Below are positions 44,033-64,000 of a stretch of DNA of 64,000 bases, piece by piece. Below the pieces are notes generated by a model, which had not been told where the DNA came from, made no database searches, and was given only the letters and a program-made list of their open reading frames with translations. Made by a program: the position numbers and the translations under genes. Each line of letters opens with the position of its first letter. The stretch's first letter is position 1. Source of the DNA: Paramecium tetraurelia (lineage: Eukaryota > Ciliophora > Oligohymenophorea > Peniculida > Parameciidae); contig NW_001799499.1 in assembly GCF_000165425.1 (NCBI RefSeq), positions 62,001 to 126,000 of the forward strand, in the 5' to 3' direction.

Positions 44033-45580
44033 TCAACAAAATTGCAATAAAACTATTAAATTAGTAGTTTCTTAGGACACTCTTTCATTCTCATGCATGC
44101 TTAAATTATTTAATTAATCGTATAATTAATTTGGAATCAATTTAAGTACTTCTGTTTAGTAGTGCATATCTTCTATTTGTAATACATTTGAGAGAGCCTC
44201 TATCAGATATAAAATTTATTCCACCTTGATATTAACTTAGTCCAAAGCCTACTCCACCACTCCAAAGAATTTCTAATGAATATCATATATATAATACTAT
44301 ATAAGGTTCAGGGTTAAATTATTGTTATTCTTATAGTCTAAATTGGATATGCTTTTGACAATTGATAAGTTTGTCTAAAACCTTTATTTTATATAGAAAT
44401 GCAAAGTTTGACTGAGCATAAAAATCAACAAATTTATCTAGATATTCCATCAAGCTTTTCTAAACATATTTATATAATATTTGATCTTCGATTAAACAAT
44501 GCAAATTGGTATAAGTCTTGTAATAGCATGAAATCAATTTTAACAGGTCTTTTCCGGCTTATTTTTCTAATTTGAACGCCAAATTATAAAGGACTTCAAT
44601 TATATTATTTTTGCCAATCAGAGGAAATAGCAATTCAGACATTTTTTTAATACAAATCCTAAGTGTCTGTTTAAAATATAAGAATTATTTACCTTAAAAA
44701 TGACAATATACTCAAATTGCGAAAGATCCTACTCTAGATATTCAACGATAATATCAGAAATAGCATATATTTACTAAAAAAATGTGAATTCTTATTCACT
44801 TAAACAATTAGCTAAAAGAACCGATCCATATATAATTTATAGGTCTTTTGTTTGAATGGCCCTATTGAGTATATCCTAAGTTACGTTAAATTAATCTTAA
44901 AATTTGAGTTCTCTTTTTGACTACAAATATAAGGATAAAAATTCGGTAAGCGCCAATAAATAGTCATCTGAAGGCAAATCAAATGCTTAATAAACAATTT
45001 ATTCTAATAATAATTTTTCCTATTGTATTATATCTAAAAGTTAACTTTCTTGTTCTATTAATAAATTTAAAGTATTAAGAGCATCTACATGCAAGGATTT
45101 CCATTCTGTAGATTATAAAATTTTCATTAATTAGAACAGCAAGGCTAGGTCGATTTTATCCTTCTCATCTGATAGAATAGTTTTAACAATTTTGGGGTTG
45201 ACTATTATGCAGTTTTTCAATAGTTATAACATCTTATTGAAATGTGATTGATGATTCAATGGCTAAATGAGATAATATTTAATGTCAATGATGAATTAAG
45301 AGACTTCATAGTATGCTTCAAACAAATCTTTAGAATCAATCAGATTACAAAATTGATTCAAAGTTTCAAGAGCATCTGATTTTAAGAACTCTTATAATGA
45401 ATCTAGGATATTTAAATTGGAAGGAAGTTTTGAATCCCCTAACCTATGGATTCCTCTATTTTATCTGAAGAGACTTTCTAATTTATTTTTCCTAATGTCC
45501 ATTCTGAATTTCTCTCTCTTCATTTGATTTATGCTCACACAATCATTGGCTATGATATTAATCTAAGGAGTATCCGACAT
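44033..45580 (-). CDS. Importin-alpha-like armadillo protein
   Basis: ATG 45580. An N-terminal basic segment (NQMKREKFRMDIRKNKLESL) resembles an importin-beta-binding region. A long helical-repeat array follows (PLNHQSHFNKMLQLLKNC, HVDALNTLNLLIEQES, YGSVLLANCLSEQEF). Introns are 26 nt near 44665-44690 and 25 nt near 44276-44300. About 500 residues, the size of importin-alpha, but the usual NLS-binding Trp/Asn ladder is not visible. Either a divergent adaptor or a related ARM protein. TGA is at 44033-44035. Confidence 0.65.
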
Positions 45581-45630
45581 AAAAATATAATTTAAAATAT
45601 TGCGGCAAATAATATAAAAATATTTAAATT

Positions 45631-47248
45631 TCATAAAGAAAATAAATTCTTCACTCTCTCAAATGTTTTTAAAACAATAGATTCCCCATAAACTAAAGTC
45701 TTGATTTCTTCAAACAGATGTTCACAAACCAAGGCATATGTAATATTTTCATTAACAATGTTATTCTATTTCAATAAATATAGAACATATCTAATTGCTC
45801 TATCTATTAACTTATTATTAGTTGGTCGAACGTATATCATAATATTGCTTTGATATCTTCCAATCCGACCCATTAATAGAGTCGAATGAATATTAATAAG
45901 ACATTTTAACACAATATTTTGTCCTAACACATCATCAATGGCCTTAACCTTTGCAAAATGTATTCTCTCTGCATTTGGTGACAGAAATTCCCATGACATT
46001 TCCAAGTTGTCTTAATCATATACAATTCTAAATTAGTTATGATTTCCTCCAGCATACTTGATTCTTCTCTCAATTTGATCCTAACTGATGTCGTGAGATA
46101 GCACTATAAAATATGATATTCAATATTTACATTTTTCTAAGCCAACCTTATGTTAATATTTATGCCAGTAATTTGATGACAACGCTCTTGGTTGTCTACC
46201 ATAAAGCAATGATTCCCAAGCTTATAAGGAATTATTGTAATTTCCTTCAGTAACATCCATCACAAAATATGACCAACTGGGATTAATTGGATTATCTAAT
46301 ATACTCTCAAAAGGATGTAAACTAAATGTTGGACATCTTAAATTATGAGATTATGATGTACCTCTCAGTTGTATCAGTTAAGATATTGATGGCAATATTT
46401 GGTTATGATCTATAGAATACAAATTCCTTCTTCAAATAGCAGTCTGCTTCTAATTCAACAAATTTTGCAATAAATTCATGAGCATCGATAGATTCATAAT
46501 ATTGTCTAACATTTTTAATTGAGTTTGTTGCATAATCAATAAAGTTCTCTTTGCATAAAATGGCTAAACCTATGGCATAAGTTAATACAGTGGAACACTG
46601 CATTCTCGTACTTCCAGTGATAGCTTAGTGACCAACAGAGAGATTTATTTTATTAATGTTCGGATTGTTAAATACATCTTAACTTCTTTAGACAGTCAAT
46701 ACTTCATCTGGATTACAATACAAGTAAAATGGTTTGCCTATTTTGCTTGCTTCTTAAGCAGCTCCAATAACCCAAGGAGTTTCTCCTCCTTCTGTCGATG
46801 ATATTAATAAATCTCCCTCTTTAAAGCCCAATTCATTCAATTGCTAAGCTCCAAATTCAGGATGATCTTCAAAATCTTCTACTGATGCTATAATAGCCAC
46901 ATCTCCTCCTGCCATAAATGATATTATATTAGTCTGTTTTGTGATTTATCTATATAGAGTTTCCAATGTCAATGCAAGTCTTCCTGTGGATCCACATCCA
47001 CAAATGAACACTCTATTACCTTTAGACCAAGTATCCAAGACCATCTGATTCATATGTGCTAATTAATCCAATTTGTTCATCAAGACGTCAAACACATACA
47101 TATCCAAGTCTTTCATTCTCTAGATTCCAGTTTTTAAATCATTTTTAGCAAATTCAGACAAACCAACCGTATGTGGATGAGCTTATTCAGTTATCAAACC
47201 TCCCAAGCTAAATTACGCACTAATTTCTAAGAAATCCTTATAATTCAT
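45631..47248 (-). CDS. SIS-domain protein, GCKR/MurQ type
   Basis: ATG 47248 (MNYKDFLEISAQFSLGGLIT, then TEQAHPHTVGLSEF). The first SIS domain reads NRVFICGCGSTGRLALTLE, MAGGDVAIIAS, DLLISSTEGGETPWVIGAA. It has the family signature GSTRMQCSTVLTYAIGLAI. A 25-nt intron (GTACAT...TTTAAG, near 46346-46370) leads to a second, weaker SIS-like domain and a helical end. Total about 530 residues, like animal glucokinase regulatory protein and longer than bacterial MurQ etherase. It may sense a sugar phosphate. TGA is at 45631-45633. Confidence 0.85.
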
Positions 47249-47270
47249 AAATATTATAATTAATATAAAA

Positions 47271-47799
47271 TCATAAAGAATATTTTTTGAAATTCTCATA
47301 ACTAACTCCTTTAGGATCACTTTATGACATTCTGTTGTAAATAGCTAACATATCTGCTTCAGTCAAATGACTATCTTTATAATTCTTCATTAAAAATACA
47401 AATTCTAAATCTAATTTAAATGAGAATACCTTCTTAGTTCAAAAAGCCATCCTTATCAGAATCATGTCTTTTAAATATCTTTTGTAGGAATCTATCTGTA
47501 GTGTCTTCATTGATATATTTTTCAACAGAATTCATTGCATTACAAAATGACTCCTCATTAATCTCATCCTTATAGCAATGACTTTTAAATGATTAGGTTA
47601 TCAAATTTTTGAAATTCTGTTTAGCTTCTCCATTTTGATCATTTGGATAGAATAAAGAACTCACCATCTCTGCAATTAAATCAATTTTAATTCCAAGTGA
47701 ATCTTATTGTTGGAACTCAAAGGCCAGAATTCTGTAAATTTCCTTATTAGACATTGTCTTTGTTTTATGAGCCTTCTATTTATTTTACTTGCTATCCAT
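47271..47799 (-). CDS. EF-hand protein
   Basis: ATG 47799 (MDSKQNKQKAHKTKTMSNKE), basic leader. One clear calcium loop (DSDKDGFLNQEEF) is split by a 25-nt intron just inside the loop region (near 47415-47439). Flanking helices look like a degenerate calmodulin-type pair (DEINEESFCNAMNS; SDPKGVSYENFKKY). About 165 residues. TGA is at 47271-47273, 22 bp before the SIS gene ATG. It is a calcium sensor by structure; its target is unknown. Confidence 0.8.
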
Positions 47800-47892
47800 A
47801 AATTTAAATTAAAAATATTATAAACAATTTTATAAATAATAAATATCCTTTCTAACAATTCAATAAAATTAATGTCTATTGAAATATTAGTG

Positions 47893-47938
47893 CTATAGAG
47901 TCACTGAGAAGGAATCCATTTATTCTAGGACTCTATAG
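47893..47938. repeat. Inverted repeat CTATAGAGTC / GACTCTATAG
   Basis: Perfect 10-bp arms at 47893-47902 and 47929-47938 with a 26-nt spacer, in intergenic DNA upstream of the EF-hand gene. Confidence 0.7.
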
Positions 47939-48134
47939 AACTTTTAATATAGTAATAAATTTATACTTGTCATGGCAAACTTTAACACTAGTGCATAAAC
48001 ATCTATTTATTAATCATAATACAGGTGTATCTCAGTAAATATTTCTGAATATTGATAATATCCTTATTATTTGTAATCATAAATCATTCAACTAAAAGAT
48101 GACTCTAATCAATTTTTTTGTCTAAATATTATTA

Positions 48135-48164
48135 TTATTGTTATGACATCAGTCATAACAATAA
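48135..48164. repeat. Perfect 13-bp hairpin
   Basis: Arms TTATTGTTATGAC (48135-48147) and GTCATAACAATAA (48152-48164) pair perfectly around the loop ATCA. It lies in an otherwise featureless intergenic stretch. Confidence 0.8.
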
Positions 48165-48476
48165 ATACTTATGTTAAACTTTGAATTCATGACAGCATTA
48201 ATTACAACCTTTTACTTAGGTCATTTTTTAATGAAAACTATTTCCGACAAATCTTCAATTCATCATTGCTAGATTTTGAGTTATTTGTAATCAAACTCCT
48301 TTCAAGACCTTCCTAGATTAGCAGTAGCTTGTGTTGATTAAAGTATAGTAAAGAAAGATATGAAAACAGTTATTATCAATTATTTGGAAATTTGATTATG
48401 GTAGATGATAAAATAAAAATATAGTGGATGATTTTATAAATAAATTGTTAATAATATATAAAGAAATGATTTATCT

Positions 48477-49663
48477 TCATACTTTAATTCTGTAAAGCTT
48501 AATATATTTTTGCCAGGTTAAAACTGCTATTACAGCATCGTAACTACCCTAAATTTATTAGATATCTGCTGAGATTAAGTTTTCTTGAGTTAATTTAATG
48601 ATAATATCTTGGTCCTTGAAAATTCTATCCAAATTGTATAATTCCATTAAACAAAATTGCCTATCATGTTATGGAACTATAATTGATTAATGGCAATGAT
48701 ACATGCTAAAAGCAGATTCAAATCTTATAAATATGAGAGCCTTTGAAATCTTTGTCCAAATGAGGAGCGATTTTGATAAAAGTTATTATCAATAACTTTA
48801 AATTCCTTATTTATGACTTAACATATTTTAATTGAATCCTTGAATCCTGCAACTATATTATACTAGGGTAATTGATCCAATTCAAATATCGAAGTCGTTT
48901 TGGTGTATTCATTTAATAAAATCCAAGATATACACCAAACCCATTCTGAAAAGATTATAGAGTATAATTGTGTCCCATTTTCAACCAAATAAATTCTTAA
49001 GCCTCCATCGATACTTCCCGAAGCGAGATACTAACAGCAAGGAGAGAATGATACGCATGGTATATTGTGTTTATGATTTTGAATGCTCTAAAGATATGGT
49101 TTAGATGCGTACATATCTAATTGGAAATTCGATGTCCGATCTCATTAGATCTTACTTATTGAATTTGAGTCTGATTTCACGGTCTTCCCAATACTTATGA
49201 TCGGGTTTATCGAAACCAAGTAGTTTTTTGGACCACAAGGAGATGATGTGAGAATTTGAACCTACAGCCAAATATTACTGGCAAACATCAATGCTCCAAA
49301 TGGAACAGTCAGCGATTTTCTGTAATTAAAATAATAAGTTACTTCGTAGAGACCCTACAATTTGATTGGTTTGATTAAAATATTATCTAGATCATAAATA
49401 TAAATGTATGAATTCATGGTGATGACAAAGAGGAGGTGGTCATATTATTTTATTTAATTGATCATATCATTTTCCTCAATTGATATGGATTTTAGTTGTT
49501 CTAATTTCAGTCCTGTGATTGAAATAAATTGTATGTAATTTGTGCAACCAAGAATAAGCAATTATCTTTGGAGATCCAATATTAGAGTGTTCATTCTCCA
49601 AGCATCAAAATCAAGATTTTCGAATTTCTTAGACTCAATTAACTCAATGTTATAACCTTCCAT
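48477..49663 (-). CDS. WD40-like beta-propeller protein
   Basis: ATG 49663 (MEGYNIELIESKKFENLDFD). Propeller-like strands recur: TLILDLQRQLLILGC, LLFVITMNSYIYIYDLDN, CSIWSIDVCQQYLAVGSNSH, HSLLAVSISGSIDGGLRIYL, EWVWCISWIL. The last blade is GSYDAVIAVLTWQKYIKLYR. Several introns occur, including 30-35 nt ones. About 380 residues. The repeats are poor in classical WD dipeptides, so this could be an elongator, TFIIIC or Cia-type propeller; I cannot choose. TGA is at 48477-48479. Confidence 0.65.
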
Positions 49664-49677
49664 TATATAAATATTTA

Positions 49678-50305
49678 ATGTATAAAATTTCAATTTTGAG
49701 TGTTACCTTCCCTAACAATAAAAATAAGTAAGATATCTACTGCAAATTAACAGAGGGTGATCAAACATATCAAACAAAGGTTGATATGGACACTATCACA
49801 ATTGCCAAGTGGGATCAGAATTTCAATGTTAAATAAACCCAATCGGAAATCACATTTTCAATCCATCTTTGGAAAGGAGACAACAAAGATCAATTGCTTA
49901 CCGAAACTAAGGTTAAATGGGAGTAGTTCCTGACTCTGATGAACACACCCCAAACGATTAAATTTGATGTATGCGAAATGAGTCTAATCATTGAAGAAGT
50001 TACAATTCCATCAAACGAAGCTTAAATTAAATAATTTTCAAAGTATCTCTCTGACACTGGCTTAGAACAATCATTCAAATTGATCTTTGCTGAAATTCTG
50101 AGCAAAAAAATTGATCGATCAGAAGTATTCACATACACAGCTTTACGTTTGAGGTAGATTGGAGATGATCTTAAAATGTTTCTTACTAATGTAAATTTAT
50201 ACATCTAAAACGTAGAATCACAAAATGAGTTAGTTACTTAATAATATAAGTGAAGTTTAATAGGATGATGAGCCAGATCAATTTTTAGAAAGTTAAGATT
50301 AATGA
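49678..50305 (+). CDS. C2-domain-like protein
   Basis: ATG 49678 (MYKISILSVTFPNNKNKQDI). N-terminal beta-rich segment (YCKLTEGDQTYQTKVD, WDQNFNVKQTQSEITFSIHL) of C2 type, then helices. A 22-nt intron (GTTAGT...TATAAG, near 50229-50250) leads to an acidic end (DEVQQDDEPDQFLESQDQ) and TGA 50303-50305. About 200 residues. The typical calcium-binding Asp pattern is not obvious, so it may bind protein or lipid instead. It starts 14 bp from the divergent WD gene. Confidence 0.65.
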
Positions 50306-50330
50306 TATAATATTATATTAAATTAATAAT

Positions 50331-51235
50331 ATGTAACAGGAAAGCATATACAATTTAATACCCAAAGAGTATGTTCCTCCCCCCAAGGAACCCATGTATA
50401 GATCTGCCTATCCTTCAAATCTTGTTCCCACTGCCAGCACTTTCAATAATCACACTACAAGCAGGCCTAAAGTACTTCTCTCTCCTATCTTTTAAGATTA
50501 ACAATATCAATGGAGATTATGAATTGGTCAAGGGTCCTCATTCTCACAAAGGACAATCCAACTCTCTAGGTAGGCCCAGAGGTAAGATCAAATAAATGAT
50601 GAGATAGGTTCATATAAACCTGATACAACTATGTTCAGATTAAAGAACACTGGAACCATGGGATCAAATCAATTACCTGAAAGTATCAAGCATTATTCTA
50701 ATTTAGTTCAATCATACAAATATCCGCCATCAATTAAACCATAAGTCCCAAAAAAGGATGAGAAACCAATACATGGTCTGAAATCTAATAAAAACTATAT
50801 AATAACCAATGCTGTCGATAACATCTTGTCAGCACCCAAATAAATTGTTGAGGATGCTGCCTGGACATCGAAAAAAGATTATGGAAAAGTTCCAGATTAT
50901 TTAACCAAAATTAAACAAAGCATAGCAAGCGAATACGAAATCATTAGAAACATGCACATAAGTGAGGCAGAAGAAATGGACAAACAAAAATATCTTTTAT
51001 CATAGGAAGAAGTATAATAGTTAAAGGAAGGACTCAAAAAAAAATGGGAGGCAGTCAATAAAGAATATTAATCAATTACTCATATTAGAATGATTGATAC
51101 AGTTGGTTTGAAAAGAAAGTAAATCTAATTATGACTATTACAAGGAAAGAGTAATGCGAAAAAGAATTAGCCTAATTAGAAAAGGATATTGAAAAACTAA
51201 ACAAGAACTATGTATTTGTTGATACATAAAAATGA
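50331..51235 (+). CDS. ENKUR: Enkurin
   Basis: ATG 50331: MQQESIYNLIPKEYVPPPKE (the ESIYNLIP motif is diagnostic). Introns are 25 nt (GTACTT...TTTAAG), 26 nt (GTAAGA...GATAG) and 26 nt (GTAAAT...TACAAG). The enkurin domain at the end reads KKDYGKVPDYLTKIK, then SQEEVQQLKEGLKKKWEAV and IDTVGLKRKK. About 280 residues, TGA 51233-51235. In cilia it is a microtubule inner protein linked to motility. The IQ-type C-terminal helix is present. It starts 25 bp after the previous stop. Confidence 0.92.
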
Positions 51236-52054
51236 TTCCATTTAAATTATCAATAAATAATCTTAATATATTATATTTTCCAAATTATTATTTCTACTTA
51301 CATCCACCTTTTTAAAAATATTTTAGTATAATTAATTTAGTTATTGTTTTAATTCAAATAAATTACTATTAAGTAAGATTGGATTTAAAAACCATTACAA
51401 TCATTTTACCTTTAAAATTCATCAATTGATGAATAGAGGATGTCTTATGACTCAAAAATTGCAATATGTTTACCTTATCTTTTATGAGAAATCATTATCA
51501 GAATTCTAATTAAATTATCAAAAGTAAAATTTGCAATTGAATTCTCTTAAACATATTCATTTAGAAATAAGAATAAACTTTTATATACACAAAAGACATA
51601 TTTTAATTATGATTAAATTTTTAAATATTTTCAATACAAAAGACCAATAACATAATATTTTCGAATTGAAAAAATTATTGGAAGTTAAGGCAATATTCAT
51701 ATAATCAAGCTATACATAGAATAATTATTACTAGAAGTAATCAAGGATAAATTATATATTATTTTATTAAACCGCTGCTGAGTTGAGTAAGTATTAATAC
51801 AATTATATATACTTAAATATTTTAAAAATTATAAAGTCACAATATTGGATATGTTATTATTATGATCTCTCGAACTTGATTAAATAAATATTTTTTTAAT
51901 GAACTTTTCCAAATAAACTATTTTCAATAAAGATTTTAAGTATTTTATGTTGATTCTTCATTTCTATTTTTATTTTATTTAAAAAGATTTCATTCTTTCT
52001 GTTATATCGGATTATCAATAAATTCATTTACTAGATGATAGGAAAAGACTAGGA
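51236..52054. other. AT-rich intergenic region
   Basis: About 820 bp of low-complexity A/T DNA after enkurin. No open code-6 frame with a coding composition and no structured repeat was noticed. Probably 3' UTR plus the promoter of the next plus-strand gene. Confidence 0.5.
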
Positions 52055-52990
52055 ATGATTCTTAGTGGTTATTTTTCATCGGAAAAACAAACGTTTAATT
52101 AATTTTAATAAATTTAGAAAATATCAATTCTTATTATTGTCAGGCTAGTATGGGAATATGCTAAAAGAAAAGTTAAAAAGATAATTCCTAAAAGCAAACT
52201 GGATATGAGTCAGAATAGATTATAGTTTTGACAAGCATTCAGAGCCACATTTAATATTTTGATTAAATAGATTTAGAACTTCTTAAATATCCAGATATTT
52301 CCTTACTACTAAGAAAACATATCAAAAACTATACATTCATTGAGGAGGGAAAGACATGGGTTGTGGTTAAGGAAATTCAAAGTTTTTTGAATAATAAAAT
52401 GCCCATATTGATTAGAAATTTTAATCCTGAAACAGATGCTGCCTTATAATTAATATAGGTTTTTGAGTCGATGGTGTTTCAGACCCAAAAAGTATTTGAG
52501 TGTTCGGTAACTTTTAATGAGGCTAAGGTTGAGTTATTTTAATTATTCCAAAATTAGTTAGTTTAAGTAATGAATATGATTATATTAGACTTCGATAGAA
52601 TGCCTAATTGTTGTAAATACTTTAATATCTAAGAGATTGTAATGGTGGAATGAAGAGTATTTTAAATGGAGATAGAATCACTTAATTTCAATGTTTATCA
52701 TTAAAAATATAAATAAAAGTAATAAGGAGATTATAGGGCCAATCTACGACTTCATTTAATTGTTGATAGAATGCATCAGACATTTTGGAGACATTGAAGT
52801 CTCTAAAGGAGTCTAAGAAACAGATTTAAAAGCGGAATAAAAGTTCTTGGATTAATTTTACAATTAAATGAGGATAGGGTTGATTCAGAATTCGTTTTTT
52901 TCGGAGAGCATATCGAATGAAGTAGTTCCAGAACAAATTTAGATTGATTAGAATGTTAGAGCATATGCCATATTAATTAATAAAAAATGA
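52055..52990 (+). CDS. Hypothetical helical protein
   Basis: ATG 52055 (MILSGYFSSEKQTFNQFQQI). Introns are 20 nt (GTTTTG...TCAGAG, near 52225-52244) and 22 nt (GTAATG...TATTAG, near 52567-52588). Then runs DQIDLELLKYPDISLLLRKH, KTWVVVKEIQSFLNNKMPIL, IYDFIQLLIECIRHFGDI, ending at TGA 52988-52990. About 295 residues with mixed helices and Gln. No family was recognised. Confidence 0.6.
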
Positions 52991-53046
52991 TTTACTTTTT
53001 TAACATTTATATAAATCATAATAACTTCTTTTAAAATTTAAGCAAG

Positions 53047-54021
53047 ATGAAGAATATTGGAATCGATCTTTTTGTCGGAATAGTTTCCAGTAAATATTAA
53101 TTTACAGTTTAGGTTGTGTTAATACAATGGTAGGTTACCCAATGGATTTTATTAAAACCAGGATGCAACTCCAACACACTAAATAGGGTACAATGTAATC
53201 AATAATAAAAATTATTTAAATGGAGGGCATCAAAGCATTGTATAGAGGTAGTATATTAAAAGGATGATATGAAAATAGGGGTATCTATTTAACTATTGAA
53301 CAGTGTATTTGCAGGATCAATTTATTTCACTACTTACGAGCAAATTCGAAGATAATTTGAAAAATACGATAATTTGCCTAGGAATAGTTATTTACCATTG
53401 CATCAAACTTTTCTAGCAGGGTCAACGGCTGTAAGTTAAAATATGAATTTAGGGTATTTGTAGTGATTTATTCGCTATTCCATTTGAATACACAAAAATT
53501 TAATCCTAAAAACAAGAAATTCTTAAGGGTTAAAAAGTTAAAGGTCCGTTGTATATTTTATTTGAAACCATTAGAAAATAAGGAATTAAATAAATATATA
53601 AGTATATTTTGTCTATATTATATTTAGGGGATCTCTATTGCAGGTGATAAGGGATTTTGTTGGATGCGGTTCATTTTTTTTAGCTCATTCAGAAACTTTG
53701 CATTTCTTTACACCTGAAGGTAAATCGAGAAATGAAGCATCTTAGACTGGAATCTTTGCAGCTAGCATAGCAGCAGGATTTGGATACTGGGTTATTAGCT
53801 ATCCATTAGATATCATAAAAACAAGATATTAAGTTGACAATTAGAAGTATTTGTTTAATTTAATTAGTGTATTAAATGTGGCAAAATAAACTTATTTATA
53901 AGGAGGAGTCTTATAATTCTACAAGGGGTTTAAAATCACAGTTCTAAGAAGTGTATTTGTCAATATATTTTAATTATACACCTATGAAAATTTAAGAAGA
54001 GCTTGCTATAAATATGCTTGA
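53047..54021 (+). CDS. Mitochondrial carrier family (SLC25) protein
   Basis: ATG 53047 (MKNIGIDLFVGIVS). Three repeats carry Px[DE]xxKxR-type motifs: YPMDFIKTRMQLQ, then IPFEYTKIQSQKQ (degenerate), then YPLDIIKTRYQVDN. Helix segments include VFAGSIYFTTYEQI and AASIAAGFGYWVIS. Introns include 23 nt (GTAAAT...GTTTAG), about 31 nt and 22 nt (GTAAGT...TTTAG). About 290 residues, six spans, inner mitochondrial membrane. The second motif has lost its Asp and the transported substrate cannot be told. TGA is at 54019-54021. Confidence 0.88.
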
Positions 54022-54111
54022 AATGTTGTTTATATTTCATTAATTATATCCATTACTACATATAAATACACATTTATAAATCTGTTCATTTTCTAATTTC
54101 CATCTATGAAC

Positions 54112-57100
54112 TCACCACTCACAATAATATATTTAGTCGTATTTATCCCAAGTATTCTGAAGGATAATTTATTCTTGATTTCTTTTATAGTAAGTATGGC
54201 ATTCCTCATTTTTGCAAATTACTTAATCGAATTAACTTTGCTAACATTATTGGCAAATCATGTTATATTTCTAAAAGCGACTTTGCGAATTGATAAGTTG
54301 CTAAATAATATAATTTAAGATATACTTGAGATATCTTAAATAGTATTTCTGACTATTGAGATCTGCAATTGAAACAAACAGGTTTATTTATTGGGACTTC
54401 GTCTCTGCAATTTACACATGTAATTCTCTTCTTTAAATATTTGTTTAGAGCCTTTTTAGATCCATTGTTTTGAACTACATTACAAAATGTTTTTTTAGGA
54501 ACTGATGTATATTAATTCAAATTAAATAAGGCTTCTGGATTTGGTATTATATGTTCTAAAATGTGGATGATCGGTATTTTTATTTAGTTAATGTAGTACT
54601 AGATGTTTAATTTATAATTATTTTTAAATGCTTCTAACGGATCTTAGGCGTTTTCTGATAATTGCTATCCAGGTATATTCTCTACAATAACGTAAGATAT
54701 TCTATCGCCTTTTTGAAATGTATTACTTTATTTATTTTTTACTTTGTCTTAGGCTACTTTGACATGAGGTTATTTTCTAAAATCATTTGTATCGTGATAC
54801 TTATCTGGATATGAATGAAATTCTTCCTCCTTATTTATTAAATCCTCATCAACAAAATCTGGCTCTTGAATTTTTATCGATAGAGATTTTGATATGATTA
54901 AATTTGAAATATTTATTTCCCCATTTAACAGTTATTGAATCTTTTCTTTCACAATGCTGACTGCTTTTTTATTATTTTATTCTATTAGTATCTCATGTAA
55001 CACCTAATTCAACATATCTCTTAAGAATTATGTGTTGTCTCTCCTAACTGTACAAATTCCTTTTTACTCAATTTTATCAGCTACCAATTTCGTTTCTTCC
55101 CAGAGGTAAATTCCAACATAAACGTTTTTTTACATACTAACAAAAAAAGGGAATTGATACATGTTTTTCAAAAAGAAAAGATTTTATTGGCTTTGGGAAA
55201 AGGAAACTAGTTACTTAAATTAGAATGCCTCAAATTGCGAATATTAAATAACATCAACTTAAATCTTAAAATTTTGGAAATTTATTAATAATGAAGTCTG
55301 TGTCTCCATATAAGAATTTCAGCATTTGGATAAATTGTTATTAATAATAGATATCGAAATTTTATAATATGGCTCTTCCTACCCTGAGTATAGATTATGT
55401 AATTTCTAAACAGGGAAGATACCCATGCTCTGCACAGCCAGTAAATCCAAAGATAGAATTAGCAGCGATTTTTAATGCTTGCTATCTAGCATCTAATAGA
55501 CTTTTCTTTTACTTATCTTCTTCTTAGCTAAAATTCCTGTTTTGTTACTGCCCTTTTTGCTAACAAATTTTCTAAAATTTATGGCAATATTCCCTTTTTT
55601 ATATGCTATTTAACAAATTTATGCCCAAATTCTGGGATGATATGGTAATCATTTTCATTTAACTTGATAGAATAATCCTTAATTATTGTTGTGTAGCACA
55701 TGTTATATGCTATGATTATACTTGGGTACAAGGATACAAAATCAAAGAGAGCTAATGGTATTTTATAAAAGCCCTTTTTAGGTTCTAACACCAAGGCTCC
55801 TTTTAAATTAGATGTATCTGGCTTTACCAGATGATTTTCATCAGGAACCAAATATTCATTTTTTTTGGTCTATCTAAGTAGTTATGACAATACTTTAATC
55901 GATTAACCTCTCTATATAATATAGTCGATTGGTACTCCAGTAACTTTTGAAATTTCTGCATAAGTGTAAATCCATCCTTTATAAAGTAATATTTCTAAAC
56001 AAGCTTCTGACTTTCTTAAACTATATGTAGATATTCTTTTAATATTATTCTATTCATATAACTAAAAGATAGTTTCTTAATCATATATTTCTATTTATCG
56101 ATTAAAAAGCGAATAATAAATACTTCCAAGTGAATACTAAGATATTTTTGTGTCCCTCAACATACAAATCAACGTATCTAATTGAATTCTACCATTTGTC
56201 TCAACAAATTTTGTTTCTCTCATTCTCATTACAGTACTAAAGAATCTACCATTAGATATTAAACTTTCTTCATTTTTTGATCTGCCATAATTCAAATATT
56301 GACAATTAAGTCCCAAAGTTCTTGATCTTTATATAATTAAAGGTAATAATTCATCATGTAGATTGTAACCTGTAATAACATCAGGATCAAAAGATAGAAA
56401 AAATTAGTTGAATTATTTTAATAAATCTATTTCATTTTCTGATTAATAGATTATCGCATTTATTATTTCATAGCATTTTTTTTAGGTAAACACAATTCGT
56501 CTCTCAAATACTGGATTGATTTGTATTACACAAGTAATAACGATAATTTCTTTAGAAGAATCAAGTGTTATTTGCGATGGAAAAATTGTTTGAATGTCAA
56601 GACTAATTATTCTTAAGTTTGGTATATGTTATTAATCTTCATGAGGACTAATATCTTCAGTTTTTGCTAAGTAACTTTTTTAACAATTAGACTCTCCATC
56701 TTCTTTGAGATTTTTCGCCATTGCCCATCCCATGCCTCTTAAATTTAAATCGATCATAAATTTTAATGGATATGTTATTCTACATTCATAAGTTTACTTT
56801 GCAAACTAAAATCCGTTTAGATTTAACCCTTTTTCTATGAGTTAAGCTACTTTCTTCATTGAACTAACATTATAAAAACTTAATTTTAAAAAAGGTTCTT
56901 TTTGGTAATTTTAACCTTTATAATTCCTTATAATTTCACTCTCAACAACAGTAATTTCTCTAATTGGTTACGATTCAGCGATAATCCCGTTTTTATAAAG
57001 ATGATTATTAAATTAATGTAAAAAATAATCAATATCCTTATCATCCCTTACTAATTTTGAGGGAAAAGGAATATAGAAATAAGGAAAATAGTCTATTATC

Positions 57101-57375
57101 TTAATTTCTAAGGATTGTTGTTAATCTGTAATACCAAATAGTCTAATTTAATTTGTATTCAATTTATAATCACAATCTAGAATTATAAAAGTTAATTTAT
57201 CTAATTCTTATATGGGAATTCTTCTATAATGATTTAGAATGCACGAAAAATGTGTATTATTGAAATTTTAGGTATTCTGATCCGCTTTAGAAAATGCTGT
57301 TTAAAACATCTCCTGTTAATGGACAGTTTCATTATAATCAAGAGTTTTGTGATTATCATCCTTGAATTCGTTCAT
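54112..57375 (-). CDS. POLD1: DNA polymerase delta catalytic subunit-like, proofreading residues lost
   Basis: ATG 57375; about 1,040 residues. N-terminal domain (LTFIILDCDYKLNTNQIRLF, IIDYFPYFYIPFP). Exonuclease region: ExoI reads ISLDIQT where DIE is expected, ExoII VITGYNLHDELL, ExoIII YSLRKSEACL without the usual Asp. Polymerase: motif A LFDFVSLYPSIIIAYNMCYT, motif B QALKIAANSIFGFTG, motif C YGDTDF where YGDTDS is usual, then KGICTVRRDN. The C-terminus has both Cys clusters (CVNC...CFNC and CQQC...CKNEEC). The order and Zn clusters are those of Pol delta. Changed residues suggest loss of proofreading. Confidence 0.85.
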
Positions 57376-57634
57376 TGTAAATATTAATATAATTTCCCTT
57401 TTCTTTAATTGGTATTTCTGATTATATGTTATAATCTTAAATGAATTAAAATAAATTTTTAGAGCCAAAATCAAAAAATGATATGAATAAAAAGAATCAG
57501 TTGAATATTTATAATATGATTGATTAAATAATTTATAGATAGCAATATATTAATGGTGAATTATTGAATAGAAATCTAATTAGCTTAGTTTAGTGCCTTT
57601 AATAAATATTAATTTTATTTAATAAGTTTTATAA

Positions 57635-58323
57635 ATGATAACTCCTTAAGAATAACTTGATATCAGTACTTTAACTTTTAAATTTAGTCATTAAGAAGAT
57701 TAAGTCATATGTAAATGGAAAATCTCAAACTACAATTAGAACTTTAGGGAAAACATTTAGAGGTTTTGAATCTTTCGATCAAAAATGCAGAATTGATAAA
57801 GATGAATTTCTGATTGGATTAAAATAAAATGGTGTTGTACTAACTAAATTTTAAACAGATGTAAGCATTCATGTTACTTTAGTTTCTACTAAATTATCTT
57901 GATAGAAACAGAGATGGATCTATTGATGTTGCTGAATTTCTTTATTTAATTAGAGTATTAATAATTATCAATTGATTTAGGGATCCCCAAATGAGAATAG
58001 ATTAAATGTCATTGTTTAAGCATTTAAGAAGTTTGATAAAGAAAATTTGGGAATTATAGTTGCAGATGAATTCAAGGGAATATTTAATGCTAAAAACCAT
58101 CCTAAAGTAACCAGAGGAGAATTAACAGAGGATCAAGCTTATATAGAGTTTTTATAATATTTCAAAGAAGGCAATAAGTCTGGCCATATTACATTGAATG
58201 TAAATTATAATAATAATACCTATAATTTAGGAATGGAAGGAATACTATGCTGCAGTTAGTGCTGATATCGAATCAGATGAAAACTTTATTGCTTTGATAA
58301 AAGAAACATGGAGACTAAAATGA
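57635..58323 (+). CDS. CAPS: Calcyphosin-like EF-hand protein
   Basis: ATG 57635; a 22-nt intron joins MITPQEQLDI to IIKKIKSYVNGKSQTTIRTL. EF-hand segments: FESFDQKCRIDKDEFLIGLK (degenerate), YLDRNRDGSIDVAEFLYLIR (canonical), FKKFDKENLGIIVADEFKGI, FKEGNKSGHITLNEWKEYYA. Introns (22, 26 and 31 nt) fall between or inside the motifs. About 195 residues, like calcyphosin, a calcium sensor common in ciliated cells. TGA is at 58321-58323. Confidence 0.88.
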
Positions 58324-58364
58324 ATGAAATTTAATAGATAAGTATCATAATTACATCATGATTC

Positions 58365-60136
58365 TCAAGACTCAGATTCATTATTTTAATAAATTCCTTC
58401 CTTTTATTGTTGATTTTCCTTCTACTATTCATTATTATTCTGGATACTATTGTTTTTCTTATCGCTCTCTTTTGGGTTTTCATTTTATTCTTCTATTTAA
58501 TTTTCATTTCCGTTTTATTTCTCTTACGATATTTTTATATCTTTTTATTCAATTTCCTACTCTGATTCTGAACTTGATTTATTTTCTAGCTTCTCCAATC
58601 TTCTTAATCTTTCATGAGATCTGGACCTAGAACGAGACGATCTAATGAATAATAACATTAAAATTACTTCTTTAATGTTTTTTTTGATTTCACTACAATT
58701 TACAAAATTAATGGTTTTATTAATGCAGGATTAATGTCATCTTATCCATTTTTATTATTATCCCTTATAGGATATACGATCATGTGGACCCAACCATTTT
58801 GGAAGTGAGATGTAACTTCATTGATTTATAGTTTCTCAACTTCTATTATTCCATCCTCTAGCCAAATATTATCCTCAGGTAATCTTAAAATTCCCTGGTT
58901 TTATGAATTGAGTTGCAATAACATTGGTTTATCATCTGATGAATATAGTTGTATCTCTAATTCTATCTTATTTTTATTTTTAATATTTTATCCTTTCATA
59001 TCCTTCAGGGCAATTTCAAGGTTAAAGTTCTTGTCCTTAAATAAAACAGTATCTAAGTCATTAATCAATACCAATTAGTATTAAAATTCATTTAAACTAT
59101 AAGATAAAGATTTTAATAGGACATTGTTATGAGTCATTTCTTGATGAGGGATTGATACTTAAATAATAGAATTTATATTATACATCTACTAACAAAATCT
59201 TCTGTCTATCCATTATCGAATTTTTGTTCAACAATTCTTTATAGATTTGTTATCTCATCCAATATCTATGTTATAACACTCTCCAAATTGGCATTTTTAT
59301 TCTTAAAGTCTAATAGCATCTAGTTTTGTTAAACAAACATATTTAAAATTTTTAATTAAAACTCGTTCACAACTTATGAAAACCCTAAAACATTATAAAT
59401 ACTTCATATTACCTTATTCTAAATTATTTGATTGTGTCATACTATTATTATTTGTATTTGAGCTTGCCTAAGTTTAAGTTTATGTTTAAGGTGCCTATTA
59501 TTATTGTTAAATTTGCTGTTGTTATTGTTATTGTTATTGTTATTGCTATTGTTATGAAAGTAGTTATTATTATTATTATTGCTATTACTATGGCATCATT
59601 TGATTCTGTCCTAATTACTATTATAATTGTGGCTATTGTTTAAATGGAAAATCAAAATTTGGCATTTGTCCCATAGGTCCTTAAGGAATCGGGCCCATTC
59701 CAGGTAATTACATCGGTCCTGGACCCATAGGCCCCATAGGACCCATTGGACCCATGGCACTCATTGGACCCATAGGACCCATGGGACCTGGTCCCATTGT
59801 TCCTGGAGGTAATTGGCCTGGTCCCATTGGAGGCATACCAAATCCAATTGGCATTGGAGGCATATTTGGTAAACCCTATGGCATACCATTGATATTCATT
59901 CCACCTTGATTAGGCGGAAGAGAATTCATTTGAAGGCCTGGGTCATGCATAAATTAATCCGGAAATGGATATTTTTAATTTGGAGGAGGCGGCATCATTG
60001 GTTGAGGAAAAGGCGGAGTCCAACATTAGTAATATTGAGGATTTGGCATAGGTAACATTCGTCCATATGGATCTGGATTACCCATTTGTTAGAACATCTA
60101 CTAGTAAAGTCTCTACTACTCTTCATTTGGATTCAT
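58365..60136 (-). CDS. Met/Pro/Gly and Gln-rich protein with C-terminal domain
   Basis: ATG 60136 (MNPNEEQQRLYQQMFQQMGN). The first 150 residues are Pro/Met/Gly repeats (MGPMGPM units, near 59690-59830). A poly-Gln region of mixed TAA/CAA follows (59510-59640). A 28-nt intron (GTAATA...TTTTAG, near 59394-59421) joins it to a folded part: VNEFQLKILNMFVQQNQMLL, then beta strands LKSLSYSLNEFQYQLVLIND, IWLEDGIIEVEKLQ and NGWVHMIVYPIRD, like a C2 domain. A 26-nt intron then gives an RS-like end (KSSRSRSRSHERL). About 560 residues. A regulator is likely, unnamed. Confidence 0.7.
59690..59830 (-). repeat. GPM/MGP-repeat coding tract
   Basis: GC-rich, near-tandem 9-bp units such as GGACCCATT (+ strand), coding repeated Met-Gly-Pro on the minus strand. 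It stands out sharply in composition from the rest of the window. Confidence 0.8.
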
Positions 60137-60435
60137 TGATATGTTAAATAAATTATTATGAAATAATAGCACATTTCACTCCCCAATTTATCAAAGTTAC
60201 AAAATCTTCCTTCAAGCGATAGAAGTCCTATAACTGTAAATACTCCTTCAAGAAAAGCAAGTGAAGTGCTGGTTAAATTTAACTTCCATCTTAATCCTTC
60301 TTTGCACAAAAAAAAATAAATAAAAAATACCACTAATAATGAATTTCAAACAAAAAAAATAAGCAAGGTTACACGAAATATCATGGAACTTGTAATATTT
60401 TATCATTATATATTTCCAAGAGGAGGAGGAAAAAA
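60137..60435. other. Divergent intergenic region
   Basis: About 300 bp between the ATGs of two divergent genes, AT-rich with purine runs (AGGAGGAGGAAAA) just before the plus gene. It is expected to hold both promoters. Confidence 0.45.
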
Positions 60436-61384
60436 ATGAAATGTGATTCGCTCTAAATCAAACCTAGAATTCAAGCATGTAAGACAAATAAAGGAGGAAC
60501 AATTTCAGTACTGAAAAATAATGAATAATGCAGATCCTATTTACATAAAAAATATAAAGATTAAATTTATACTGGAGCCTCTGAATTTAGTGATAAGAGT
60601 AAAGATAAATTTAGATTACAGATGGTCAAATGGCTAATAGATAATAAAAAGGATGTTGTTAGCGCTTTGAATGAAAATAAACAAAATATTTTAGAATGGG
60701 TTCAATGTGTTGAAAAAGTAGACAGAGATGAATTTGATATCATACTTCATGGAATCTAGTTGTACAAGGATCCAAATCTAATAAATCGTTTATTTTGGTA
60801 TCAAGTAGCAATTATTTAGGGTATTTGATTTAAATGATGATGGATACATTGAATTTAATGAAATACAATATTCAATAAATTTATTTAGAGAATACGATTA
60901 ATAGGACAAGATTCAGATATTTTTTGAGCTTTGTGATGAAAATGATGATGGTTATATAAATGAGGAAGACATCAAAAAATTTTTCTCCAAGAATCTTACC
61001 AATTAAGAAGAGCTAAGATAAATGAAATTTTTGATGAAAGATTTCTATCAAGAACTAAATCCTTATAATTTTAAAGGATTAAATGCTGAAGATTTATATA
61101 AAGCTACTTTAAGTGATCAAAATATAAGGATAATAGTTGAAAAAAATACTTTGATTCTTAAATCAAATAATAAAAAAGAAGATGATATAGGGTCAAGCCT
61201 TAATAATCTTATTTATTCTGGATAATAGTAATGTATATACTAATATTTTTAGTGAAGGAAAATAAGGCATATTCTTCCCTTAGATTGAGGGTTTAATTGA
61301 TGCCTTAATTGAGAAGGACAGAATTATGATGCAATATAAATAGATAAATTGGATTTTGATTAGATTGAAGATAATTCTGATTGA
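60436..61384 (+). CDS. EF-hand protein, calcineurin-B-like
   Basis: ATG 60436 (MKCDSLQIKPRIQACKTNKG). An N-terminal helical part is followed by two canonical calcium loops: VFDLNDDGYIEFNEIQYSI and LCDENDDGYINEEDIKKFF. A 22-nt intron (GTATCA...TTTAG, near 60797-60818) precedes the first loop. After an Asn/Lys-rich section a 25-nt intron and a possible further one lead to an acidic end (LDFDQIEDNSD) and TGA 61382-61384. About 285 residues. A sensor by structure; the target is unknown. The last exon joint is uncertain. Confidence 0.75.
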
Positions 61385-61424
61385 TTTTATTTTTTATATA
61401 AATAAATTTCAAATTTGAAAATAA

Positions 61425-62246
61425 ATGGCAGGTAAAATATAAATCTGAGTCTTTAGATCAATTAGAAGAGAGAGCATAAAGAATTTTCGGAAAGTTATAA
61501 TCAATATAGAACAATGTTGAGGGGGAGAAATAATAAAAATTCAAATTAATATTGGGATATTTGTAGAGTGTTGAATCAGCAATTGAAGATGTTTAATAAT
61601 AGAAAAATTAAAAGTTTTTAGACATTGCAGAAAAAGTATTAATTTAATTGAATCAAGTTATAAAGATTGAAGTCAATGTTAGACACAGAAAAGGAGGCTA
61701 GAGATTAAATCAATGAAAAAATGAAAAAAGAAATATTATCAGTTGAAAAGAATTGTAAAACTCTTTTGAATAGTTTCAGCAAAGAAAGATTGGAAACTGA
61801 GAAGAGAGTGTTTTAAAATCTTTCTTAATAGGTTGATTAATTATCAACAGAAATTTAAAAAGAATTTCATTAAAAGTCTGAGACTTAAAATAAATTATTA
61901 GAAATCTAAAATGGTATAAATTCAAAGTAATAAAATAGAGTAAATCCCTTAATTCTACTAAGAAATAGAATAAGAAATTAGAATTAGAGAAGAAATTGAG
62001 GAAAAAATTGCCCAATAATTTAATGAGCAATTGGATGAACTCAAAAGAATATTTGATAGTCAATAAAAGTAAAGAGAATAAAGAGAAGAGGAAATCATTG
62101 GAATATTAAAGAAGATTTACTAGAATGCCTATGATGCATGCAAAAGGAATAGAGCTGATAGAGAAAGAAATGAAGAATTATTAGTTAAATTAGTTGAATA
62201 AGTAGTTGAAAAAATTAAAAGAGAGATAGTTGATTCTGATTTTTGA
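61425..62246 (+). CDS. SF-assemblin (striated fibre protein)
   Basis: ATG 61425; a 25-nt intron (GTAAAA...CTTTAG) right after two codons gives MADQLEERAQRIFGKLQSIQ. Long coiled coil with SF-assemblin features: NNVEGEKQQKFKLILGY, EKLQRLKSMLDTEKEARDQI, SFSKERLETEKRVFQNL, KLLEIQ, KLVEQVVEKIKREIVDSDF. Two more introns are 22 nt and 25 nt. About 250 residues, no membrane part. It polymerises into striated basal-body rootlets, which are prominent in Paramecium. TGA is at 62244-62246; 40 bp after the previous gene. Confidence 0.85.
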
Positions 62247-62328
62247 AAAAACATTATTAATATTATTATATGATTTTGACCTTGCAATTATTTATAATTA
62301 TTTGTAGTTGATTCTATAATATAAATAT

Positions 62329-63335
62329 TCAAATTTAGACATGTACCAATATCAAAGTAATGTCGTCTCTACTACCATCATTTTGATCCCATTTTTAGTA
62401 GGTTTCCCCTAATATTTTTTAGACTCCCAAATCTATATCTAATTGGGTAAAAGGAGGATCTAGTTGATCTATTATCTTTTAGACACTCTCAAAATCCATT
62501 TTATCCCAAAGTCCGTCACTTGCTAATAAAATAAATCCGTTATTTTATATTTTATATCTTAAAATTTCAGGATCAGCAATAACTCCCACTGATTTGGCTG
62601 CCATATCACCAAATGATCTTGACATTGCCAACCCAGGTACATCTTCATTAGCTAGCCAAACCCTATAAGGCCCTAATCTTTTTCCATCAATCAAACTTTA
62701 TTCAACTCTGCCTCCAAATTTCATTATTCTTTTATATTCAAAAGTCTTATTAGGTTTATGATCATATGATAATGGTCTATTGTACCATAGATCTTGAGAT
62801 TTATAAAAAAAGACAGCCCTTGAATCTCCAATATTTGCACAATAAATTCTTGATCCGATCAACAAAATAACTACTCCAGTAGAACCACTAAAATTGCATG
62901 CAATATTTGTTTTATCTACCTAAATTAAATTAAATTATTACTAAATCGTTTTCTACTTGTTAAAAAGCAATTTACAATGATTAAGAAAAATAATTAGGAT
63001 TATTGGCATTATTTTGAACTAGCTAATTTTCTATTACTTTAATCATATGTCTTGAAACAAATTATGATACTAAATGCCCACTTTGCCCATGTCCATCAAA
63101 GATACCAAAGAAATGCCAATCATTTTGATTACACATATTTTTTTTTATTGCAAGACAATCTTAATTGATTTTCTATTTCTTTTTATGATTTTGACCAGGA
63201 AGTGTTCTACTGTTTTTCAATATCATACTTTGATGCTACTTAAATTAACAATTCTTCTTCTTATTATATTTCAGTTTAAATTCTCTTCATATGATCTTTT
63301 TAAATTGGAGGCAATTTATCGACAATACTCAACAT
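62329..63335 (-). CDS. PP2C-family Ser/Thr phosphatase (PPM)
   Basis: ATG 63335 (MLSIVDKLPPIQKDHMKRIQ). PP2C motifs follow in order: TLPGQNHKKKQKINQDC, FFGIFDGHGQSGH, SGSTGVVILLIGSRI, ANIGDSRAVFF, SYDHKPNK, AMSRSFGDMAAKSVGVIADP, LLASDGLWDKMD, DDITLILVHV. Metal-binding Asp residues are all present, so it should be active (Mn/Mg-dependent). Introns are 19 nt near 63215-63233 and 22 nt near 62919-62940. TGA is at 62329-62331. About 320 residues, a single catalytic domain. The substrate is unknown. Confidence 0.9.
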
Positions 63336-63448
63336 TGATTAATGATTAATTTTCCTTAAATTTTATTTCTAATTGGTTGTACTAATAGAACGAGGAATTT
63401 TAAATTATCTTATAATGTCTAATTTTTAATTCATATATTTTAATAATA

Positions 63449-64000
63449 TCACTAAAATGGTCCAACTCTTTATCCTTATAATTGCATCTAGGTGCTTCTT
63501 ACATTAAAAACTCCTTCAATTATTGTTTATTGAGTCTCACCTATCACTTACTTTTCTCCTAAATCTATGTTGAAATTCTTAACAAATAATGGATTTGGAT
63601 TTGATAAAACATCATCATTGCAAGATAATCCATCCAAATATTATTTGAGTAAAGATTATAATTGATTACTTTCATTTTGTAATGCCTCTTTTTATTTTTA
63701 GATTGCTAAAATGTCCAATAAGACCTAATAAATAATATACATTATATACCTTATTGTATCTTTTATAGAAATTATTTAGATATGCAAATTCTTCATATTA
63801 ATCTTTTTCAATAGCTTCAAAGTCATTTTTCAAGTTTTCTGGAATCTGATCCAAATCAACTGTATCTTCATAAAAAGGCAAGACCTTTTCTCTTTCTGTT
63901 TCCAATCTTCTACATAATTCAGCTGTCTTAAGTATCTTTTCTCCTAATTCCTTGTATTCAGTTAATTTTAAAACTGCATTTCTACTATTGTTAACCAATT
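63449..64000 (-). CDS. CCDC65: DRC2/CCDC65, C-terminal part (5' end beyond window)
   Basis: The frame enters at the right edge on the minus strand: EYKELGEKILKTAELCRRLE, then YLNNFYKRYNKV. After a 25-nt intron at 63725-63749 it continues LLDILAIQKQKEALQNESNQ, LLKQYLDGLSCNDDVLSNPN, FNVRSTQMQLQGQRVGPF, ending at TGA 63449-63451. This is the conserved end of nexin-dynein regulatory complex subunit 2. The start lies outside the window. It points the same way as the PP2C gene and ends 114 bp before it. Confidence 0.9.

Follow-up and report, generated by a model that had tools for sequence, protein, structure and literature searches.

A frame-broken duplicate of the DNA polymerase delta gene POLD1 in Paramecium tetraurelia, without most of its exonuclease carboxylates, is probably a recent pseudogene

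The question raised by this locus is whether a POLD1-like gene of Paramecium tetraurelia that lacks proofreading residues is a specialised polymerase or a decaying copy, both of which the original prediction had left standing. The window, i.e. the whole stretch of 64,000 nucleotides that was analysed, corresponds to C188:62001-126000, and the genome searched comprised 69.07 Mb in 231 contigs. The genome was found to read TAA and TAG as Gln and to contain tiny introns and duplicated segments. No account of such a gene was found among the results returned by a literature search for Paramecium DNA polymerase delta/POLD1. The gene was found to contain the following parts.

54112-57375, minus strand: the whole POLD1-like gene, with the ATG at 57375 and the TGA at 54112-54114
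55537-57375, minus strand: first homologous segment, containing the N-terminal domain, the exonuclease domain, the palm with motif A and the start of the fingers
54326-55294, minus strand: third open frame, containing the palm, the thumb and the start of the C-terminal domain (Pfam matches, codon usage)
54301-54325, minus strand: 25-nt GTA..TAG intron; the POLD1 gene of contig C157 contains an intron in the same region

The first homologous segment was found to contain 613 codons without TGA, and the same frame continued open up to a TGA at 55170. In a PDB search with the first 607 residues the best match was Pol delta (E=1e-70), followed by Pol zeta (9e-26). The Pfam search gave PF03104 (5.2e-32) and PF00136 in three pieces (1.1e-35, 2.4e-18, and 9.3e-23), followed by zf-C4pol (PF14260) in the CysB piece (E=2.4e-7, over its cut-off), whereas the N-terminal domain POL3_N (PF24055) reached 23.9 bits against a cut-off of 24.1. 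On sequence comparison, a similarity to Pol delta by chance is excluded by these E-values. The PDB match and the matches to PF03104, PF00136, and zf-C4pol bear out the predicted minus-strand B-family polymerase gene with the domain order of POLD1.

A genome-wide profile search was found to give nine matched stretches for PF00136 on five contigs and five stretches for PF03104 on the same five contigs, which carry POLD1 (C157), POLE (C46), POLA (C167), REV3 (C8), and the POLD1-like gene (C188). The second intact POLD1 for which a check had been proposed is present on C157. Since eukaryotes have four B-family polymerases (PMC2669801) and the genome contains all four besides, the POLD1-like gene is a fifth one. 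A DNA search of the genome for a further copy of it found none except itself, and 37 pattern matches to stray ciliate contigs in prokaryote assemblies gave zero confirmed cases. The polymerase B-subunit family (PF04042) was found at five places, on contigs C17, C149, C206, C58, and C199, which is more than the three usual subunits; these may be genome-duplication pairs.

In a polymerase-domain tree of six rows, built without POLA and POLE, the POLD1-like gene was found on the POLD1 side, with a split of 100/100 between it and REV3; within that side this tree gave it no firm place. Four-row trees grouped it with C157 POLD1 (100/100) to the exclusion of human and yeast, under a long-branch warning, as its branch was 1.46-1.76 as drawn against 0.2-0.29 for C157 POLD1, i.e. 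about 5-9 times longer. REV3 (Pol zeta) is generally known to have a dead exonuclease and two C-terminal Cys clusters. The POLD1-like gene shares these features, and family B itself, with REV3 and could on that ground be taken for Pol zeta. This identity is extremely improbable and was rejected, as the genome contains a separate REV3 gene on C8 (E=4.7e-96 to Pol zeta), the tree sets REV3 in a clade apart from the POLD1 side including the POLD1-like gene, and the PDB ranking favours Pol delta.

The exonuclease motifs were read from the alignment to human, yeast, and C157 POLD1.

56590-56598, minus strand: ExoI, D-I-Q, with Gln (codon CAA) for the catalytic Glu
56347-56364, minus strand: ExoII, N-L-H-D-E-L, with Leu at the site of the catalytic Asp
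56011-56025, minus strand: ExoIII, Y-S-L-R-K, with Lys at the site of the catalytic Asp

Among the carboxylates of D-I-E, N-x3-F-D, and Y-x3-D, only the first Asp of ExoI was found to be kept and three of the four were lost, whereas C157 POLD1 was found to contain all four metal-binding carboxylates. These carboxylates are required for proofreading in family B polymerases, and proofreading is predicted to be lost in the product of the POLD1-like gene. The Gln in place of the catalytic Glu in ExoI and the absence of the Asp from ExoIII were confirmed as originally described. The change of Asp to Leu in ExoII, seen in the alignment of GYNLHDELLP with GYNIQNFDIP, had been missed, and the loss of proofreading is thus indicated more strongly than had been stated.

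The polymerase motifs and the C-terminal cysteines were found at the following positions.

55720-55743, minus strand: motif A, DFVSLYPS, intact (alignment)
55446-55487, minus strand: motif B, RQQALKIAANSIFG, in the second frame (alignment, Pfam)
55293-55310, minus strand: motif C, YGDTD followed by F (second frame) or S (third frame)
54365-54418, minus strand: CysA, four of four Cys, C-x2-C-x10-C-x2-C
54199-54255, minus strand: CysB, four of four Cys, C-x2-C-x9-C-x4-C (PF14260, E=2.4e-7)

Motifs A and B were present as predicted, motif B with NSIFG for NSVYG (F for Y), and both C-terminal clusters agreed with those of POLD1 in all eight Cys. Motif C was found to contain both Asp, and was read as DTDF or DTDS and followed by KKR or KNVY, depending on the frame. 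Among the residues that are the same in the POLD1 of human, yeast, and C157, the palm and fingers up to motif B were found to keep 68 of 96, followed by the thumb with 34 of 54, the exonuclease domain with 45 of 98, and the N-terminal domain with 16 of 39. The stretch of motif B-C-KKRY kept 22 of 51 in the second-frame reading or 18 of 51 in the third-frame reading.

The locus had been taken for one open gene, which does not hold in this assembly. A spliced alignment that allowed GT..AG introns and one-base shifts needed two one-base frame changes with each of C157 POLD1, human, and yeast as reference, whereas C157 POLD1 needed zero frame changes against human (874 aligned residues) or yeast (896).

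55528-55548, minus strand: frame break 1, approximate place, near 55536, one extra base
55118-55295, minus strand: interval that contains frame break 2

At break 1, an alignment of canonical length was obtained once one base was left out. A late break 2 leaves two in-frame TGA codons to be read (starting at 55256 and 55232) in the second frame with its 22 of 51 invariants, whereas a break at motif C gives the third frame with its 18 of 51, where skipping of base 55295 turns YGDTDF into YGDTDS and no TGA follows down to the last intron. Shuffles over the break-2 region gave no significance for either frame. The F codon of motif C (55295-55293) sits at the start of the break-2 interval, which suggests that the F for S comes from the broken frame and not from a substitution; this is not proven, since the second-frame residues past the F (IINKF vs VMVKF) are about as similar. 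The ending of motif C in F, as first described, is therefore true of the second frame, whereas the third frame without base 55295 reads DTDS.

Codon usage, trained on the other polymerases of the genome and independent of homology, was found to pass from the first to the second frame between the windows 55650-55501 and 55575-55426, and the third frame was best from window 55275-55126 onward. The window 55350-55201 fitted poorly in every frame (the first was best at -3.2), and the upstream windows 56625-56476 and 56550-56401 showed a slight preference for the second frame. At penalties of 9, 11, 14, and 18, a codon-only gene finder called frameshifts in 32 of 85, 15 of 87, 5 of 87, and 2 of 88 genes, respectively. 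It split the POLD1-like gene in two at all four settings, placed a shift at two of them only, and preferred an intron over a shift at penalties 14 and 18. As a frameshift background it was dropped as too unspecific (2/88 to 32/85 genes).

Introns were also considered as a way across the breaks. When GT..AG introns of 18-36 nt were allowed, the best model without shifts scored 1525 against 1546 with shifts, and crossed the broken part by three introns that start with GTT and end with CAG, GAG, and AAG. This model was rejected; its introns cut out conserved residues. With GTA..TAG introns only, the no-shift model scored 1370 with one TGA left, against 1539 with shifts, and with GTR..YAG introns 1430 with two TGA left. 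A 31-nt GTA..TAG stretch at 55512-55482 on the minus strand could bridge break 1 at the cost of about 10 residues of the fingers, and itself reads as conserved polymerase exon (KKSLLDARQ). As a stretch of consensus type, it could serve as a new frame-rescuing intron. None of the GTA..TAG candidates bridged break 2. An alternative intron model had been considered as a source of the missing motifs; D-I-E and Y-x3-D were restored by no model tried, as both lie in unbroken frame, whereas DTDS was restored by a frame change.

In P. tetraurelia, 69.8-77.4% of the introns are GTA..TAG (PMC5663052), so that other intron ends are not rare, and in oligohymenophoreans the conservation is described as limited to GT..AG (PMC5014332), which weakens a strict GTA..TAG rule. 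The median intron is given as 25 nt, and a table lists introns longer than 40 nt as 38 of 90,282 in its first column and 720 of 94,711 in the second (PMC5485702). PMC12862383 contributed nothing decisive.

The origin of the gene was read from its neighbourhood.

50305-51236, plus strand: enkurin gene (PF13864), the common neighbour that links the locus to C157 POLD1

The POLD1-like gene and POLD1 are parts of a duplicated segment. An enkurin gene lies by each of them in the same orientation (C188:112229-113131 and C157:127588-128453), with 75% DNA identity over 944 aligned bases, in agreement with the proposal of a duplicated polymerase. No further specific neighbour besides enkurin was found to be common to C157 (80 kb) and C188 (104 kb), and the other matches in that comparison belong to a repeated gene family. 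The intervening genes differ, with a FEN1-type gene after enkurin on C157 and a mitochondrial carrier beside the polymerase on C188. With the FEN1-type gene (XPG_N, XPG_I) flanked by enkurin and POLD1 in C157:127588-137400, two lagging-strand synthesis genes are only a few kb from each other. An open frame at 59258-60172 of the window, on the minus strand, was found to be rich in Met, Gly, and Pro and to contain a long Gln run, and gave no Pfam match at E 0.01.

Partner contigs were searched at the DNA level with two 19-kb pieces, i.e. 38 of the 64 kb of the window. The closest collinear partner was C3, with four long matches of 80-88% DNA identity (45001-64000 piece; C3:241177-258128), followed by C69 and C177 with several matches each at 66-82%. 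A second set of contigs (C157, C156, C138, and C58) was found to have a few genes in common with the window, including one with 81-83% identity. Just past POLD1, C157 is also matched by C156 (95%) and C138 (80%), where C188 gave no match. On C3 the flanking genes are 1.4 kb apart against 4.6 kb at the POLD1-like locus, and no polymerase remnant was found in the fetched piece of C3; the short gap and the missing remnant indicate that the copy on C3 is gone. The fetched pieces of C69, C177, C156, and C138 gave no convincing remnant, for C69 among the matches listed and for C156 and C138 over part of the interval.

In a DNA tree of five enkurin copies, midpoint-rooted and built without those of C58 and C69, the C188 copy paired with that of C3 and the C157 copy with that of C156, each inner branch at 100/100, whereas in an enkurin protein tree the fragmentary C69 copy stood away from those of C188 and C3, without a starred branch. 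Old, intermediate, and recent genome duplications are described for Paramecium (PMC11334263; PMC3464196). The contig sets and the enkurin splits agree with an old split, as expected of the old whole-genome duplication. Given the midpoint rooting and the position of the C69 enkurin fragment they fall short of proof of that age, and our confidence in the whole explanation was lowered for this reason by a small step, to somewhat better than even.

The selection history was addressed by a simulation of neutral decay, in which the C157 coding sequence was decayed to 45% changed residues in 180 runs. Every one of the 180 runs ended with at least three TGA, the mean being about 10, and none with two or fewer, in a simulation without indels that starts from the present-day C157 sequence, with a CDS (1073 codons, no TGA) whose translation is not letter for letter the C157 protein used elsewhere. 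The POLD1-like gene contains zero or two TGA, depending on the reading, and zero over about 1078 codons if break 2 is at motif C. As these are far fewer than neutral decay gives, the frame was probably held open for most of the life of the gene. A neutral pattern of substitution along its whole history does not agree with these counts, and with a non-neutral history the inactivation would be recent.

The reading that we favour, and hold to be probable, is that of a POLD1 duplicate that lost proofreading, was long kept open, and is now a frame-broken recent pseudogene. The duplicate would most likely date from the oldest of the whole-genome duplications in the Paramecium lineage. The intact C157 copy would have kept the replicative role, and the duplicate, freed from it, would have evolved fast and given up proofreading under selection that still held its frame open, with motif A, motif B, and the C-terminal cysteines surviving best. 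In this assembly the frame is now broken at least twice, in the fingers and the palm, and the gene would be near the end of its life. The unspliced product would be truncated at about 735 residues, of which some 120 at the end are out of frame. We infer the polymerase activity, what the gene does at present, and when its frame was broken; its past role may have been, at most, that of a delta polymerase lacking the exonuclease. In the choice between a specialised polymerase and a decaying copy, the present two breaks in the fingers and palm fit the decaying copy better.

The frame-disabling lesions are present in this assembly. The claim of a pseudogene is carried solely by the two one-base breaks, both of which assembly errors could produce, and with the breaks set aside as assembly indels, or as one indel and one unusual intron, the gene would be a live, lineage-specific Pol delta paralogue without proofreading, kept since the old duplication beside the normal POLD1. 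The kept C-terminal cysteines would link such a protein to a POLD2-type partner, with which it would carry out DNA synthesis without 3'-5' exonuclease, in short repair or during development. The lack of TGA over some 1078 codons with break 2 at motif C, where neutral decay gives about 10, agrees with this, as do the kept motifs A and B and eight Cys, the DTDS regained on omission of base 55295, and the runs of A5, A7, and T7 close to the breaks. However, the frames of the other B-family polymerases in this assembly, which span 14,033 nt and include 86 homopolymer runs of at least 5, were found to contain zero in-frame TGA, and POLE, POLA, POLD1, and the C-terminal part of REV3, the part to which that check was applied, were unbroken in alignment to known proteins over the matched stretches, which makes two assembly errors in one 3.2-kb gene unlikely. 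Moreover, the third frame has KNVY in place of KKRY, and of the 51 invariants round motif C, 29 or 33 are lost, depending on the reading. A live paralogue is accordingly given a lesser chance, and a paralogue that is catalytically poor and long kept for a structural or regulatory role, for example as a competitor for the B-subunit, is unlikelier still. The kept C-terminal cysteines would suit such a role, which might also be played by the truncated first segment alone; the truncated product would, however, be without these cysteines, and the best-kept stretch is that up to motif B, which is not obviously needed for structure alone.

Inactivated polymerase modules, which speak for the structural or regulatory role, are known from the C-terminal half of Pol epsilon and from an archaeal PolB family (PMC2669801), in which, as in the POLD1-like gene, a polymerase-exonuclease module has lost catalytic residues. 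In the Pol epsilon module both the Exo and the Pol motifs are described as disrupted, with 'DIE' as the sole exception (PMC2669801), whereas the POLD1-like gene retains motifs A and B and has an altered DIE and a broken frame. With POLD1/Pol3 (PDB 6s1m and 6p1h; C157 copy) the gene shares the domain order, motifs A and B, and the CysA/CysB spacing, and with the C157 copy also the intron in the same C-terminal region and the neighbouring enkurin, whereas it differs from POLD1/Pol3 by the three lost exonuclease carboxylates and the two frame breaks, and from C157 POLD1 by its long branch and an identity of 37% (375 of 1014 aligned residues). Duplicates from Paramecium genome duplications are described as undergoing gradual loss (PMC11334263), which the present case resembles in that one copy is damaged and then lost, the C3 copy being gone already, and from which it differs in that it concerns a replicative polymerase and, most likely, an old duplication.

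If the gene is the dying duplicate that we favour, it gives a view, in a single gene, of how a replicative polymerase is lost, with proofreading going first and the frame later, the polymerase core being still kept while proofreading was given up. If it is alive, Paramecium would have, besides its normal Pol delta, a second delta-type polymerase that is error-prone, and this would bear on how its germline holds the very low mutation rate described in PMC11334263. As the intact copy, the empty partner site, and the common neighbour are all identified, the locus is a clean test case either way.
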